A DNA stretch of 64,000 nt, from the IMG/VR virus record IMGVR_UViG_3300032214_001034, positions 1 through 64,000 of that record, one strand, 5' to 3'. The notes under the pieces were generated by a model. It was not told the origin of the DNA. It made no database searches and saw only the letters and a list, made by a program, of their open reading frames with translations. This DNA is from a virus. Numbering within the stretch: the first letter of the stretch is position 1; every line of letters begins with the position of its first letter. Shown in pieces: positions 59,304 to 63,851 of this stretch. Both the position numbers and the translations under genes were made by a program.

Positions 59304-59332
59304 TTGACACTCCAACAAACATCCTATATAAT
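59304..59332 (+). promoter_or_regulatory. sigma70-type promoter of the oxygenase-halogenase operon
   Basis: TTGACA (59304-59309), a 17-base spacer and TATAAT (59327-59332): a perfect consensus just after the last Gly-rich gene. It places the five enzyme genes under early-type control although they sit within late fibre genes. Confidence 0.85.
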
Positions 59333-59355
59333 ATCACTGAATACATTATTCAAAT

Positions 59356-59976
59356 ATGGCATTTCAATCAATTTGGTATTTTTCTGATCTACCAGAAGAA
59401 GTAGTAGATCTTGTAGAACGAGACCTTTCAGAAAAGTTCGAAGAGCAAATGGCAGACTCCAGATTGCATGGAGACGCACTGAACAAAGATAAACGAAACT
59501 CACAAAACGCTTGGATCCCCACCACACATTGGGTTGGTGGATTCGTATGGCACTATATTGAACGTGCAAACCGCGAGAACTTCCTCTATGACCTTCGTTG
59601 TATTGATGGAGAATCAATGCAGTTCACGAAGTATAGTGAAGGACAGTTCTATGGTTGGCATAATGACGCAGGTTTAGCGACTCAATACAAACCTGTAAGT
59701 GTTGGTAATCGTCAGGATGGTCTGGCACAAGATTTCTTGAATGAGAATATTGAACTTGTACGTAAACTTTCATTCGTGGTCCAACTCTCTGACCCCGATG
59801 ATTATGAAGGTGGCAATCTCCAACTTCTTGATGAAGCAGGGAATAGTTATATTGCTCCCCGTAAGCGTGGCACTGTGATTCTGTTTGATTCCCGCACACA
59901 ACATAGAGTTCTTAAAGTTACAAAAGGAACCCGTAAGAGTTTGGTAGGTTGGTGCGTAGGCAGCCGTTGGAAATAG
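59356..59976 (+). CDS. 2OG-Fe(II) oxygenase, prolyl/PKHD-hydroxylase type
   Basis: A 206-residue 2-oxoglutarate and iron dependent oxygenase. The iron ligands are His102 and Asp104 (YGWHNDAG) and distal His183 (SRTQHRVLKV), with Arg193 of GTRKSLVGW as the 2OG anchor. The double-stranded beta-helix strands (LSFVVQLSDPDDYEGGNLQL, RGTVILFDS) are all visible. This subgroup hydroxylates peptide prolines or related substrates. It is the first gene of the operon and the closest to the Pro/Gly-rich array. Confidence 0.88.
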   Translation: MAFQSIWYFSDLPEEVVDLVERDLSEKFEEQMADSRLHGDALNKDKRNSQNAWIPTTHWVGGFVWHYIERANRENFLYDLRCIDGESMQFTKYSEGQFYGWHNDAGLATQYKPVSVGNRQDGLAQDFLNENIELVRKLSFVVQLSDPDDYEGGNLQLLDEAGNSYIAPRKRGTVILFDSRTQHRVLKVTKGTRKSLVGWCVGSRWK

Positions 59977-60013
59977 AAACTTCGGTGGAACTGACTAAAT
60001 AGTTATATCTATA

Positions 60014-60736
60014 TTGAATAAAACTATGGAAAATCATTATGTTTACTATTCTTATGAGGAGTTTGGGAGGGGTTACATAGGTTGTAGGACCTGCGAATGT
60101 CTCCCAGAAGAAGATCAATATATGGGGTCTTTTACTGATGAAACATTCAATCCAACCAACAAGATAATCCTTGAAACTTTTTCTACAAGAAAAGAAGCAC
60201 TTCAAGCAGAAGTAGATCTCCATAAGTTTTATCAAGTAGACAAAAATTCTCACTTTGCTAATAAAGCAAGACAAAAAACAACTGGATTTTATTATTCATT
60301 TAAAGGAGCAATTCGCACAGAAGAATACAAAAAGAAAATGAGCGAAAGACTTAAAGGTAGAGAAATAAAACCAGAATGGATTGAAAAAATGAAAGAAAAT
60401 CTAAAACCTGCTTTTGGTGAAGATAATCATTTTTATGGAAAAAATCACACAGAAAAATCTAGAAAAGAAATTTCAAATTCCCTCAAAGAATATTATACAA
60501 ATAATTCACATCCTTGGTCTGGTAGAAAACATAGTGAAGAATCAAAAGTAAAATTTAGAATAAAAAACTCTGGTGAAAATAATCCAAATTTTGGAAAAAT
60601 ACAAAGTGAAGAAACAAAGGAAAAAGTTAGATTAGCAAAAATTGGTAAAAATTGGTGGTCTAATCAAATGGAAGAAAAATTTTGTAAAGAATGTCCTGGT
60701 GAAGGATGGAAACTTGGTAGAAAGAAAAGGAGGTAA
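60014..60736 (+). CDS. GIY-YIG-type homing endonuclease with NUMOD3 repeats
   Basis: A 240-residue nuclease. The N-terminus (YVYYSYEEFGRGYIGCRTCE) has a GIY-YIG-like start with a diverged first motif. Three NUMOD3-type DNA-binding repeats follow: GEDNHFYGKNHTEKSRKEIS, SGRKHSEESKVKF and GENNPNFGKIQSEETKEKVR. Basic residues dominate. Such free-standing (Seg-like) enzymes are mobile. It is inserted between two oxygenase genes and interrupts the operon without breaking a frame. ATG at 60026 is an alternative start. Confidence 0.8.
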   Translation: MNKTMENHYVYYSYEEFGRGYIGCRTCECLPEEDQYMGSFTDETFNPTNKIILETFSTRKEALQAEVDLHKFYQVDKNSHFANKARQKTTGFYYSFKGAIRTEEYKKKMSERLKGREIKPEWIEKMKENLKPAFGEDNHFYGKNHTEKSRKEISNSLKEYYTNNSHPWSGRKHSEESKVKFRIKNSGENNPNFGKIQSEETKEKVRLAKIGKNWWSNQMEEKFCKECPGEGWKLGRKKRR

Positions 60737-60739
60737 GTT

Positions 60740-61462
60740 ATGGCAGAACAAATGAGCGAACTGCAACTAATGATGCAGGAAAGGATGAATACGGGAACTG
60801 CTTGGACTCGTAATGAATCCTTTGAAAAGAATGGATATTTGGTAATCAAAGACCTTTGGGACCCAGAAGAACTTTATCATCCTCTGCCACCAGAACGTGG
60901 ACAGATGAACTGGTGGGGTAAAAAGATTGACCAGTTTACTCATACACCAGTAGAACAACAGGTTGAAGGTTCACTTGCGCGTTATTGGCACCCACAATAT
61001 CGTCAGATTCACTGTGGTATTCGCACAAAACTAGAAGAAGCACTGGGTCGTAAACTTTATAATACTTATTATTATGATAGATATTACTTCCCTGGTCAGG
61101 AACTTACACGTCACGCAGACCGTGATGCCTGTGAGATTTCTGTGACGGTTCATATCAGCACTAATCTGGAAGGTAAGGATGCTGATTGGCCGATCTTTAT
61201 TAAGACACCAGACCAATACGCAGACAAAAAGAAAACCCAGGTATTAGTTCCTGGTGAGAACCGTTCTGTGGTTCTCAAAGCAGGTGATGGTATGGTTTAT
61301 AAAGGTTGTGAACGCCCACACTGGCGTGATCCGATGCCTGGTGCAAAGAAGAATAAAAAACTGTTTGGTAAAACTTCTGAACTTTATTTTCATCAGATCT
61401 TTTTTCACTACGTGCTTCAAGATGGACAACGTGCCCACTGTGCTTGGGATAGAGCACGATGA
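60740..61462 (+). CDS. 2OG-Fe(II) oxygenase
   Basis: A 240-residue oxygenase. His125 and Asp127 (LTRHADRDACEISVTVHIS) and distal His193 (ERPHWRDPMPG) form the iron triad, with Arg195 a possible 2OG anchor. The Tyr-rich approach (YNTYYYDRYYFPGQ) and FHQIFFHYVLQDG end suit phage 2OG oxygenases. Substrate unknown. GGAGG lies just upstream of the ATG in the tail of the endonuclease gene. It overlaps the next gene by 4 bases. Confidence 0.85.
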   Translation: MAEQMSELQLMMQERMNTGTAWTRNESFEKNGYLVIKDLWDPEELYHPLPPERGQMNWWGKKIDQFTHTPVEQQVEGSLARYWHPQYRQIHCGIRTKLEEALGRKLYNTYYYDRYYFPGQELTRHADRDACEISVTVHISTNLEGKDADWPIFIKTPDQYADKKKTQVLVPGENRSVVLKAGDGMVYKGCERPHWRDPMPGAKKNKKLFGKTSELYFHQIFFHYVLQDGQRAHCAWDRAR

Positions 61463-62010
61463 AAACTCCACTTTTTGAATACCCTTCTTATCAATATCAA
61501 ATTGATGATTGGGATTTTAAAAAGAAGGGACTGCTAAATCGTATCAACTCTCAAAAGTTTGTAAGGACTACACTTCAAACTTTTGAGACCGACAGACAAA
61601 CAAACAAGAAGTCATATCTACATTACTTCCAAGACCTTATCAAACCTCAACTGTTTGAGTTTTGTCGGGAAGCAGAAGTTTCTTGTAGTATGACTGATTG
61701 TTGGTCTGTGAGATATAAACAAGGAGACCATCAGACCATTCACAATCATCGTAGTTGGGGATTTTCTGGTGTTCTTTATGTTGAGTATGATCCCAAACTT
61801 CATACTCCTACTTGTTTCGTTGCTCCTTGGCAAGACCCAAGAACTGATACAACAACATTAGCATATCCACAAAATGTAAAGGAGGGAACATTAGTGATTG
61901 TTCCTTCTTATACTTTACATTTTGTACATCCCAATCAAGTAAGAAAGCAGAGAACGATTATATCTTTTGACTTACTTCCCAAACTACCAGAACACCAAGC
62001 AATCCAGTGA
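61459..62010 (+). CDS. 2OG-Fe(II) oxygenase, family-5 type (HxH)
   Basis: A 183-residue protein of the 2OG-FeII_Oxy_5 type. The iron motif reads His95-Asn-His97 (QTIHNHRSWGFSGVLYVEY), a variant in which His replaces the usual Asp. The distal site is LVIVPSYTLHFVHPNQ (His154 or His157), and Arg165 (RKQRTIISFDL) would hold 2OG. Substrate unknown. It overlaps both neighbours by 4 bases (ATGA and GTGA-type), so the last three genes of the operon are tightly coupled. Confidence 0.82.
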   Translation: MKTPLFEYPSYQYQIDDWDFKKKGLLNRINSQKFVRTTLQTFETDRQTNKKSYLHYFQDLIKPQLFEFCREAEVSCSMTDCWSVRYKQGDHQTIHNHRSWGFSGVLYVEYDPKLHTPTCFVAPWQDPRTDTTTLAYPQNVKEGTLVIVPSYTLHFVHPNQVRKQRTIISFDLLPKLPEHQAIQ

Positions 62011-63428
62011 AAATAGTTATTGTAGGAGGCGGAACCGCAGGATGGATTTCCGCCCTCATTCTTCAAAAGGAAACAGATCATAACATCACTTTGATTGATA
62101 GTTCTTCTATCGGACCATTAGGTGTTGGTGAAAGTACAACAGGACTCTTTGGACAAGTTATTCGTGCATACTTGTCTGAGGAGGACTTTGTTGAAAAGTG
62201 TGGTTTAACTCCTAAATTAGGAACACAATTTATCGGATGGTCCGATAAAGATTTTTATTCTCCATTAGAAGGTACATTCTCAGCACATGATGAGTTTGAT
62301 TATGCCTTCTATTATGGATTAGAAAACTCAAGACTGAATGATTATTCTGTATTCAGTTTATTTGCAAGTCAAGATAAGATTAATTTTAATAAGACAACTA
62401 CAAAAGAAAAGTTTGTCTCTGATAGAAGGTATGCATATCATTTAGATACTTACAAAACAATTGCATATCTAAAAGAAAAATGTGTTGAATCTGGTGTCCA
62501 ATTTATTGATTCAAAAGTTGTAGATATTTCTTTAGATAAATTCAGAAACGTAAATCAAATCTATACAGAAGACTCTGCGATAGAGTGTGATTTTGTAATT
62601 GACTGTAGTGGTTTCAATCGTACAGTCATATCAGCATATAATCCTAACTTTGTATCTTATGAGAAATGGATGAGTGTCAATACAGGACTTCCATTTAACT
62701 TAAGTTGGGATGAGATTGAATATAAAAAACCTGTTACTACATCAAGAGCTTTATCTTGTGGTTGGATGTGGATGATTCCAACACAACATAGTATTGGTTG
62801 TGGAATTGTATATGACAATAACTTTGCAACACAAGATGAAATAGTTGCAGAAGTCAATGAAATACTTGGAGTCAATATAAAAATAAGAAAAGAAATTAAA
62901 TTTAGATCTGGAAGACTGGATCAATCTTTGTGTCATAATGTTGCATCAATTGGCACTTGCTATTCATTCTTGGAACCATTACAAGCAACAAGTATTCATA
63001 CAACAATTCTACAAATAGAACGATTGGTTCATCTATTAGAGAATAGTATTACTGTAGATGACTATAATCTTTTTTGTGCAGATGTAGTTGATAATTATGC
63101 TGACTTTGTATCATTACATTATCAATTTAAGCATATTAATAATGAGTTCTGGCAAAGTAGAATTCCAAGAGAATATACAGCAGAAATGATTGAAAAATCA
63201 AAGAGACAAGCATTAACACCATATGATTATGATATTAATCGAGGACATTATGAACTAGTTGGTCATAATTTATGGAGTTATATACTTGCTGGTGGTCATT
63301 TAGTAACTCATCAAAGAATAAGTTATACGGAAGAGCAGTTAAATAATATTCAACTTTGGGAAAATCAAATTCCAGAAGTTTTAGAGAACTCTATGACATT
63401 CACCGATTTTCTGGGGATGTATAAATAA
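62007..63428 (+). CDS. Flavin-dependent tryptophan halogenase-like protein
   Basis: A 473-residue FADH2-dependent halogenase of the PrnA family. The nucleotide-binding GGGTAGW is at 7-13, GVGESTTGLF follows, Lys70 (TPKLGTQF) is placed like the catalytic lysine, and the WxWxIP signature is present as GWMWMIP (252-258). SFLEPLQATS with Glu323 matches the active-site loop. Chlorination or bromination of an indole is the family reaction; the true substrate is unknown. No flavin reductase is visible nearby, so reduced flavin would come from the host. GTG start overlaps the previous stop. Confidence 0.85.
   Translation: MKIVIVGGGTAGWISALILQKETDHNITLIDSSSIGPLGVGESTTGLFGQVIRAYLSEEDFVEKCGLTPKLGTQFIGWSDKDFYSPLEGTFSAHDEFDYAFYYGLENSRLNDYSVFSLFASQDKINFNKTTTKEKFVSDRRYAYHLDTYKTIAYLKEKCVESGVQFIDSKVVDISLDKFRNVNQIYTEDSAIECDFVIDCSGFNRTVISAYNPNFVSYEKWMSVNTGLPFNLSWDEIEYKKPVTTSRALSCGWMWMIPTQHSIGCGIVYDNNFATQDEIVAEVNEILGVNIKIRKEIKFRSGRLDQSLCHNVASIGTCYSFLEPLQATSIHTTILQIERLVHLLENSITVDDYNLFCADVVDNYADFVSLHYQFKHINNEFWQSRIPREYTAEMIEKSKRQALTPYDYDINRGHYELVGHNLWSYILAGGHLVTHQRISYTEEQLNNIQLWENQIPEVLENSMTFTDFLGMYK
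63421..63427 (+). promoter_or_regulatory. Late promoter restarting fibre transcription
   Basis: TATAAATA (63420-63427) is a perfect late box in the last codons and stop of the halogenase gene, 16 nt before the next fibre-type ATG. Confidence 0.6.
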
Positions 63429-63443
63429 CTAGAAAGTCATAAA

Positions 63444-63851
63444 ATGACAAGAGCAAGAGACCTAGCAAGATTAGGCAATAGCCAAGCACTTTCGGTTGAT
63501 AGTAACTTTAATGTTGGTATTAACTCCACACAACCCGATTCAAAGTTAGATGTTGTTGGTGTTGTTAGTGCTACTTCATTTTATGGTGATGGTTCAAACT
63601 TAACTGGTATTGCTGCTACTGATACAGTAAGCACCAGTTCTTTAAACGTTATTGGTATTTCCACTCTCGGTGGATTTACTACTTTTGGTAATAATGCTTT
63701 TATTGCGGGTATTGTAACTGCTACTAGTTTCAGCGGAACAGTCCCATCATCAAACTTAAGTGGAGCATTACCTGCTCTTGATGGTTCTGCACTTACAAAT
63801 CTCAATATTCCTGCAGGTTTTAACGAACTTGATGCAGCTTTGTTTAACTAA
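63444..63851 (+). CDS. Fibre-type repeat protein
   Basis: A 135-residue protein, MTRARDLARLGNSQALSVDS then NVGINSTQPDSKLDVVGVVS, ATSFYGDGSNLTGIAAT and a second ATSFSGTVPSSNLSGALPAL unit. The opening looks like a shared attachment segment, and the SFYGDGSNLTG unit links it to genes at 43439 and 45224. It continues the fibre region after the enzyme operon. Confidence 0.7.
   Translation: MTRARDLARLGNSQALSVDSNFNVGINSTQPDSKLDVVGVVSATSFYGDGSNLTGIAATDTVSTSSLNVIGISTLGGFTTFGNNAFIAGIVTATSFSGTVPSSNLSGALPALDGSALTNLNIPAGFNELDAALFN

Follow-up and report, generated by a model that had tools for sequence, protein, structure and literature searches.

Flavin-dependent halogenases, 2-oxoglutarate (2OG)-Fe(II) oxygenases and their co-occurrence are already known in cyanophages; earlier proposals were DNA repair or 2OG/nitrogen signalling in the case of the oxygenases (PMC3037559, PMC2984593) and, in that of the halogenase, antibiotic protection (PMC2984593, PMC9964418). 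In the literature searched, no physiological substrate was assigned to VirX1-type viral halogenases or to the numerous 2OG oxygenases of cyanophages, and no proposal of tail-fibre modification by such enzymes was found in the open-licence part of it. Here we describe a cassette encoding three predicted 2OG oxygenases (OXY1, OXY2 and OXY3), a homing endonuclease and a protein of the flavin-dependent halogenase family (HAL), located in the viral record IMGVR_UViG_3300032214_001034 (74,468 bases, incomplete), of which positions 1 to 64,000 were analysed and are referred to as the window. The nearest isolates of this virus are the T4-like Synechococcus phages S-SM2 and Bellamy (Kyanoviridae).

Of the described systems, VirX1 (the flavin halogenase of cyanophage Syn10, PDB 6QGM) and the homologous cluster of syn9 resemble the window in having a PF04820 protein with the conserved Lys and WxWxIP, and 2OG genes beside tail-fibre genes; however, VirX1 has the catalytic Glu (PLEST) where HAL has Gln (PLQAT) and belongs to a separate clade (about 29% identity), and in syn9 the cluster stands behind a late motif instead of the sigma70 promoter of the window cassette. 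The S-SSM6a/S-SSM7 halogenase/carbamoyltransferase/2OGFeDO cluster (PMC7824862) likewise combines a halogenase with 2OG enzymes, but adds carbamoyltransferases, a methylase and sugar enzymes, and its halogenase is of another clade. The "PrnA" halogenases of S-PM2, S-RIM44 and Sf-CH3 fall into the same Gln-type subclade as HAL (31-35% identity), although they lie in tRNA/auxiliary metabolic gene regions without 2OG neighbours. Closest in layout are the OXY1-OXY2-OXY3 cassettes of S-SM2 and Bellamy, which have the gene order of the window, 75-88% identity (OXY1, 88% in S-SM2 and 84% in Bellamy), a perfect promoter and the same tail-region position, whereas they lack the homing endonuclease and have no halogenase in the cassette or elsewhere in the genome; they also carry one additional 2OG gene, which in S-SM2 separates OXY2 from OXY3 and in Bellamy precedes OXY1. 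As far as our search went, new are the exact gene arrangement, a conserved OXY1-OXY2 module with a sigma70 promoter within a late operon of tail genes, the subclade of Gln-type halogenases and a quantified halogenase-2OG association.

In the window, a tail-gene block (44.7-59.3 kb) containing glycine-rich PF21722/phrog_2295 proteins and tail-fibre-like proteins is followed by the promoter and the cassette genes, after which tail genes resume from 63444. The features are as follows.

59304..59332, plus strand: sigma70-type promoter TTGACA-N17-TATAAT at the cassette head, 12/12 consensus match.
59338..59355, plus strand: leader TGAATACATTATTCAAAT from promoter to OXY1 start, its only copy in the window; a similar TGAATA.ATTAT occurs in many relatives.
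59356..59976, plus strand: OXY1, 2OG-Fe(II) oxygenase, 206 aa, HxD...H (PF13640, 4.4e-15; phrog_61).
60029..60736, plus strand: free-standing GIY-YIG/NUMOD3 homing endonuclease, 235 aa, ATG start (NUMOD3, 1.1e-18; phrog_314).
60740..61462, plus strand: OXY2, 2OG-type oxygenase, 240 aa (alignments, AlphaFold model, fold match).
61459..62010, plus strand: OXY3, 2OG-FeII_Oxy_5 type, 183 aa, HxH...H, accessory (PF13759, 3.9e-13; fold search).
62007..63428, plus strand: HAL, flavin-dependent halogenase family, 473 aa, GTG start, Gln-type cyanophage subclade, accessory (PF04820, 2.8e-81).
63420..63427, plus strand: TATAAATA, a late promoter motif of T4 type that shares bases with the stop codon of HAL and lies ahead of tail gene 63444; the sole plus-strand TATAAATA in the window.

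The initial annotation, made from the same sequence, had the coordinates and motifs right, including the 4-base overlaps at the OXY2/OXY3 and OXY3/HAL junctions of these co-oriented genes, but overlooked the endonuclease reading frame between OXY1 and OXY2; the cassette therefore comprises five genes, not four.

The perfect sigma70 promoter that had been noted at the cassette head proved to be conserved upstream of OXY1: 11 or 12 of the 12 consensus positions were matched at 53/76 loci, against 10/932 for other genes, and after removal of duplicates a match of at least 11/12 was retained in 43/62 relatives (69%), against 0-5% in each other gene class. Four perfect TTGACA-N16-18-TATAAT sites were located in the window (7845, 33012, 33465 and 59304), where 0.12 would be expected. 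An ATAAATA motif, similar to the late sequence of T4 (TATAAAT, in the form used in PMC3037559), was often found 20-40 bases ahead of tail-gene starts, and in the window none stood ahead of OXY1, OXY2, OXY3 or HAL. The tail genes of the window with [N]ATAAATA about 20-40 bases before the start are:

44683, 46049, 47467, 49471, 51468, 54765, 55031, 57482 and 63444.

In Bellamy, which has no HAL, the TATAAATA motif and its flank before the tail gene are identical to those of the window. The exact TATAAATA downstream of the cassette was rejected as a marker, since it occurred in only 8/60 relatives, against 55/897 controls, whereas the shorter ATAAATA did prove informative. Based on the sigma70 consensus conserved at OXY1 and the late motifs at the tail genes, we infer that the cassette forms an independently switched unit inside a late tail operon; a conserved promoter of this type within such an operon would mark the cassette as separately regulated, and the cassette is probably expressed early. 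Early expression was rejected as a general trait of halogenase-2OG clusters, because late motifs head the clusters in syn9, S-CREM1, S-WAM1, S-SZBM1 and others, as well as OXY1 of Sf-CH11. It was also noticed that the leader contains a perfect palindrome (TGAATA-CAT-TATTCA, 59338-59352), partly conserved in relatives, which is a possible operator or leader element.

The reading of three 2OG oxygenases was borne out for each gene. OXY1 was assigned the 2OG fold (double-stranded beta-helix) via PF13640, with an HND iron motif read from the sequence. For OXY2, a Pfam search of the protein gave no match, but alignment of 28 sequences revealed invariant H125, D127, H194 and R196, corresponding to an HxD...H iron triad, and the AlphaFold model (pLDDT 92) was matched by Foldseek to 2OG oxygenases; the best PDB fold was the prolyl-4-hydroxylase of Pseudomonas putida, solved in complex with EF-Tu (4IW3; E-value 6.5e-8), the closest solved fold despite an identity of 13%. 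OXY3 was assigned the 2OG oxygenase fold by AlphaFold and Foldseek, its matches including viral collagen prolyl and lysyl hydroxylases, and its alignment with relatives showed H95 and H154 to be invariant and H97 to be kept in at least 90%, giving HxH...H instead of HxD/E...H; the HxH "variant" pointed out earlier is present, but is common to the aligned relatives rather than an oddity. The modelled folds of OXY2 and OXY3 are compatible with protein hydroxylation, without proving it. The public annotation of OXY2 as "ferrochelatase" was rejected in view of the missing Pfam match and of 2OG oxygenases as the best folds listed, and the labels "DNA endonuclease V" and "minor coat protein" for cassette neighbours were unsupported by fold or Pfam. 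Such labels (ferrochelatase, DNA endonuclease (V), minor coat protein) are attached to PHROG families 2954, 3531, 274, 2297 and 1644, which are matched by 2OG-type oxygenases, and are carried by GenBank cyanophage records as well.

HAL matched PF04820 over its full length (274 bits, residues 2-436) and contains GxGxxG and WxWxIP in the forms recognised initially, GGGTAGW and WMWMIP; it is a halogenase by family, with a putative halogenating activity. HAL shares 60% identity with one metagenomic relative (L135) and 24-35% with the remaining phage halogenases in the comparison. Lys79 is an essential residue of PrnA, and Glu346 of that enzyme has been proposed to hold HOCl and to deprotonate the intermediate (PMC9764358). 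The Lys79 equivalent is Lys in HAL (TPKLGTQF) and aligned as Lys in all 30 phage sequences, whereas the Glu346 equivalent is Gln in HAL (PLQATSIH) and in five phage proteins (those of L135, S-PM2, S-RIM44 and Sf-CH3, and the second copy of Sf-CH11); the other 24 phage sequences, 9LUQ, 6NSD and VirX1 have Glu. The designation of HAL as "PrnA-like" is therefore misleading. On a tree of the phage halogenases, the Glu-to-Gln change was placed once, with the six Gln-type members forming one clade (SH-aLRT 97), and retention of the Gln across 30-60% identity argues against decay of the subclade. The Gln suggests an altered activity or substrate, and in this subclade nature has in effect tested the replacement of the catalytic glutamate. 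In addition, HAL has SPLEG where tryptophan halogenases have an HPFE-type motif, and its alignment to 6NSD stops near residue 396. MibH has a lantibiotic peptide as its substrate. In a residue comparison, MibH, VirX1 and BrvH fell outside the free-tryptophan enzymes (PMC8269204). A search of the incomplete 74-kb fragment for a phage flavin reductase found none.

A scan of viral contigs for OXY2 yielded 79 distinct loci, in about 76 of which OXY1 adjoins OXY2, and in about 30 of which OXY3 is present. This halogenase was absent from all of them, none of the 79 having HAL after OXY3. Many of the loci bear further 2OG-type genes around OXY1-OXY2, accessory open reading frames often being 2OG enzymes, and a different, non-orthologous halogenase-family gene lies upstream of OXY1 in Sf-CH11 and three further loci (L027, L053 and L059). 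Halogenases of several clades have thus joined OXY1-OXY2, yet the pair requires none of them. This distribution gives no support to the single pathway on a shared substrate suggested by the initial annotation, and comes near the annotation's own refuting condition, part of the operon being missing from close relatives whose neighbouring genes are unchanged. Homing endonucleases split the OXY1-OXY2 junction in several loci, most relatives having no gene there. At this junction in two relatives (L018:2367-2450 and L031:7192-7290), an inverted repeat holding the late motif TATAAATA/CATAAATA precedes the homing endonuclease and is degenerate in the window; it resembles the control elements of T4 homing genes.

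Across 19 genomes of cyanophages or pelagiphages, 24 halogenase clusters were compared with a null obtained by rotation preserving 2OG clustering. Within 5 kb of the clusters, 37 2OG genes were observed against 14.8 expected (rotation p 1.5e-4), and 12 clusters had at least two 2OG genes against 3.8 expected (p 5e-5), these p values being approximate and optimistic, given the relatedness among the genomes and a listing that omitted the weakest 2OG matches. The association of halogenases with 2OG genes is general in cyanophages and partly published. The earlier view of a set of tailoring-type enzymes is supported; the cassette genes are co-oriented and overlap at the 3' end, and the clustering of halogenases with 2OG genes in cyanophages is non-random. 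Genes for tail fibres, fibre assembly, adhesins or collagen-like proteins lie next to halogenases in syn9, S-CREM1, P-TIM40, Sf-FR1, P-RSM6, S-WAM1, S-SZBM1, Sf-CH11 and S-SRM01. In the halogenase loci of S-PM2, S-RIM44 and Sf-CH3, a virion structural gene was located about 2 kb away on the opposite strand.

Our leading explanation, offered tentatively, is that of a modular protein-tailoring cassette set among the tail-fibre genes of a T4-like cyanophage, with tail-fibre/adhesin proteins as the foremost candidate substrate. The core, OXY1-OXY2 with its conserved sigma70-type promoter, has gained homing endonucleases, OXY3, other 2OG genes and, here, HAL behind it, and the tail genes downstream carry a late motif of their own. 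Host RNA polymerase would transcribe the cassette early, so that the enzymes are ready ahead of late-protein accumulation; OXY1 to OXY3 would then hydroxylate side chains of amino acids, and HAL, supplied with FADH2 by a host reductase, may act on an aromatic side chain or on a similar substrate other than free tryptophan. The likeliest substrates would be the phage's own tail-fibre/adhesin proteins, which are encoded on either side of the cassette, and no common target residue or pathway would be needed among the enzymes. The explanation draws on the OXY1-OXY2 pairing with turnover of accessory genes, the 2OG enrichment near halogenases, the contrast between the conserved promoter and the late motifs, the OXY2 and OXY3 fold matches to protein hydroxylases, and the residue comparison that sets VirX1, BrvH and MibH apart from free-tryptophan enzymes. 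The position by tail-fibre genes that recurs in many phages points to virion proteins as the substrate, and this neighbourhood, shared by several halogenase clades, provides a directly testable target in the tail proteins of virions from phages that can be cultured. A wider proposal, which we regard as doubtful, is that cyanophages keep a swappable system of 2OG hydroxylases and halogenases, including the altered chemistry of the Gln type, that modifies tail-fibre/adhesin proteins and so diversifies host recognition chemically, beyond sequence.

Several observations weigh against the assignment to tail proteins. An early promoter is ill-suited to a tail-maturation enzyme; the OXY2 fold match list also holds AlkB and small-molecule enzymes; the nearest HAL relative, that of L135, adjoins clamp and clamp-loader genes, not tail genes; and the HAL-clade members of S-PM2, S-RIM44 and Sf-CH3, in their tRNA/auxiliary metabolic gene regions, are free of 2OG genes within 5 kb. 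In 24/51 relatives, no tail gene was recognised over the 3.5 kb that follow OXY2. Tail genes were found downstream in 18/19 relatives with OXY3 and in 9/32 without it, but covariation of the enzymes with particular tail families was not demonstrable on the OXY2 tree, which provided only 3 independent pairs, and therefore no OXY3-tail covariation is claimed.

Two features, the sigma70-type promoter and the genomic positions of the HAL relatives, speak instead for a role in the host or in metabolism. The cassette could be directed at the host, with early hydroxylation, and here perhaps halogenation, of translation factors, transcription or surface components serving to redirect it, the tail region being a mere insertion hot spot. 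That OXY1 has a conserved sigma70-type promoter and not a late motif, that the best fold for OXY2 is a bacterial prolyl hydroxylase complexed with EF-Tu, and that several of the nearest HAL relatives lie outside tail regions are all in line with this; however, the halogenase-2OG clusters of other cyanophages sit behind late motifs within tail-fibre blocks and the sequence points to no specific host target, so that we consider it rather unlikely. Also unlikely is a small-molecule pathway, in which a metabolite would be modified, or a halogenated product would protect the infected host or decorate polysaccharide. Halogenated metabolites or polysaccharide decoration have been proposed for S-SSM6a-type jumbo cyanophages (PMC7824862), whose cluster we also saw in S-SSM7, and antibiotic protection was proposed in the reports cited above, but the cassette genes include no scaffold builder (carbamoyltransferase, methyltransferase or sugar gene) and this halogenase was not recovered in the 79 relatives. 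Least probable is that independent accessory genes gathered at a recombination hot spot driven by homing endonucleases, making the neighbourhood uninformative on common function, for although homing endonuclease genes lie at gene junctions, the GC content at third codon positions differs among the cassette genes (0.33-0.34 in OXY1/OXY2, 0.26 in OXY3, 0.19 in HAL and 0.17 in the endonuclease) and HAL follows OXY3 in the window alone, OXY1-OXY2 and its promoter are conserved over about 79 contigs, the 2OG enrichment near halogenases survives the rotation, and an overlap of a halogenase with a 2OG-family gene recurs in L135 at a different locus.

Two further observations concern the tail genes around the cassette. 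Just past the window end (L087:5977-6660), a second GIY/NUMOD3 endonuclease lies among tail genes and is 61% identical, over the aligned part, to that of the cassette. The tail proteins encoded at 63444-63851 of the window and in relatives (clusters c5 and c19) have a recurrent C-terminal motif, P-A-G-[FY]-x-[DE]-L-D-x-[AM]-L-F.

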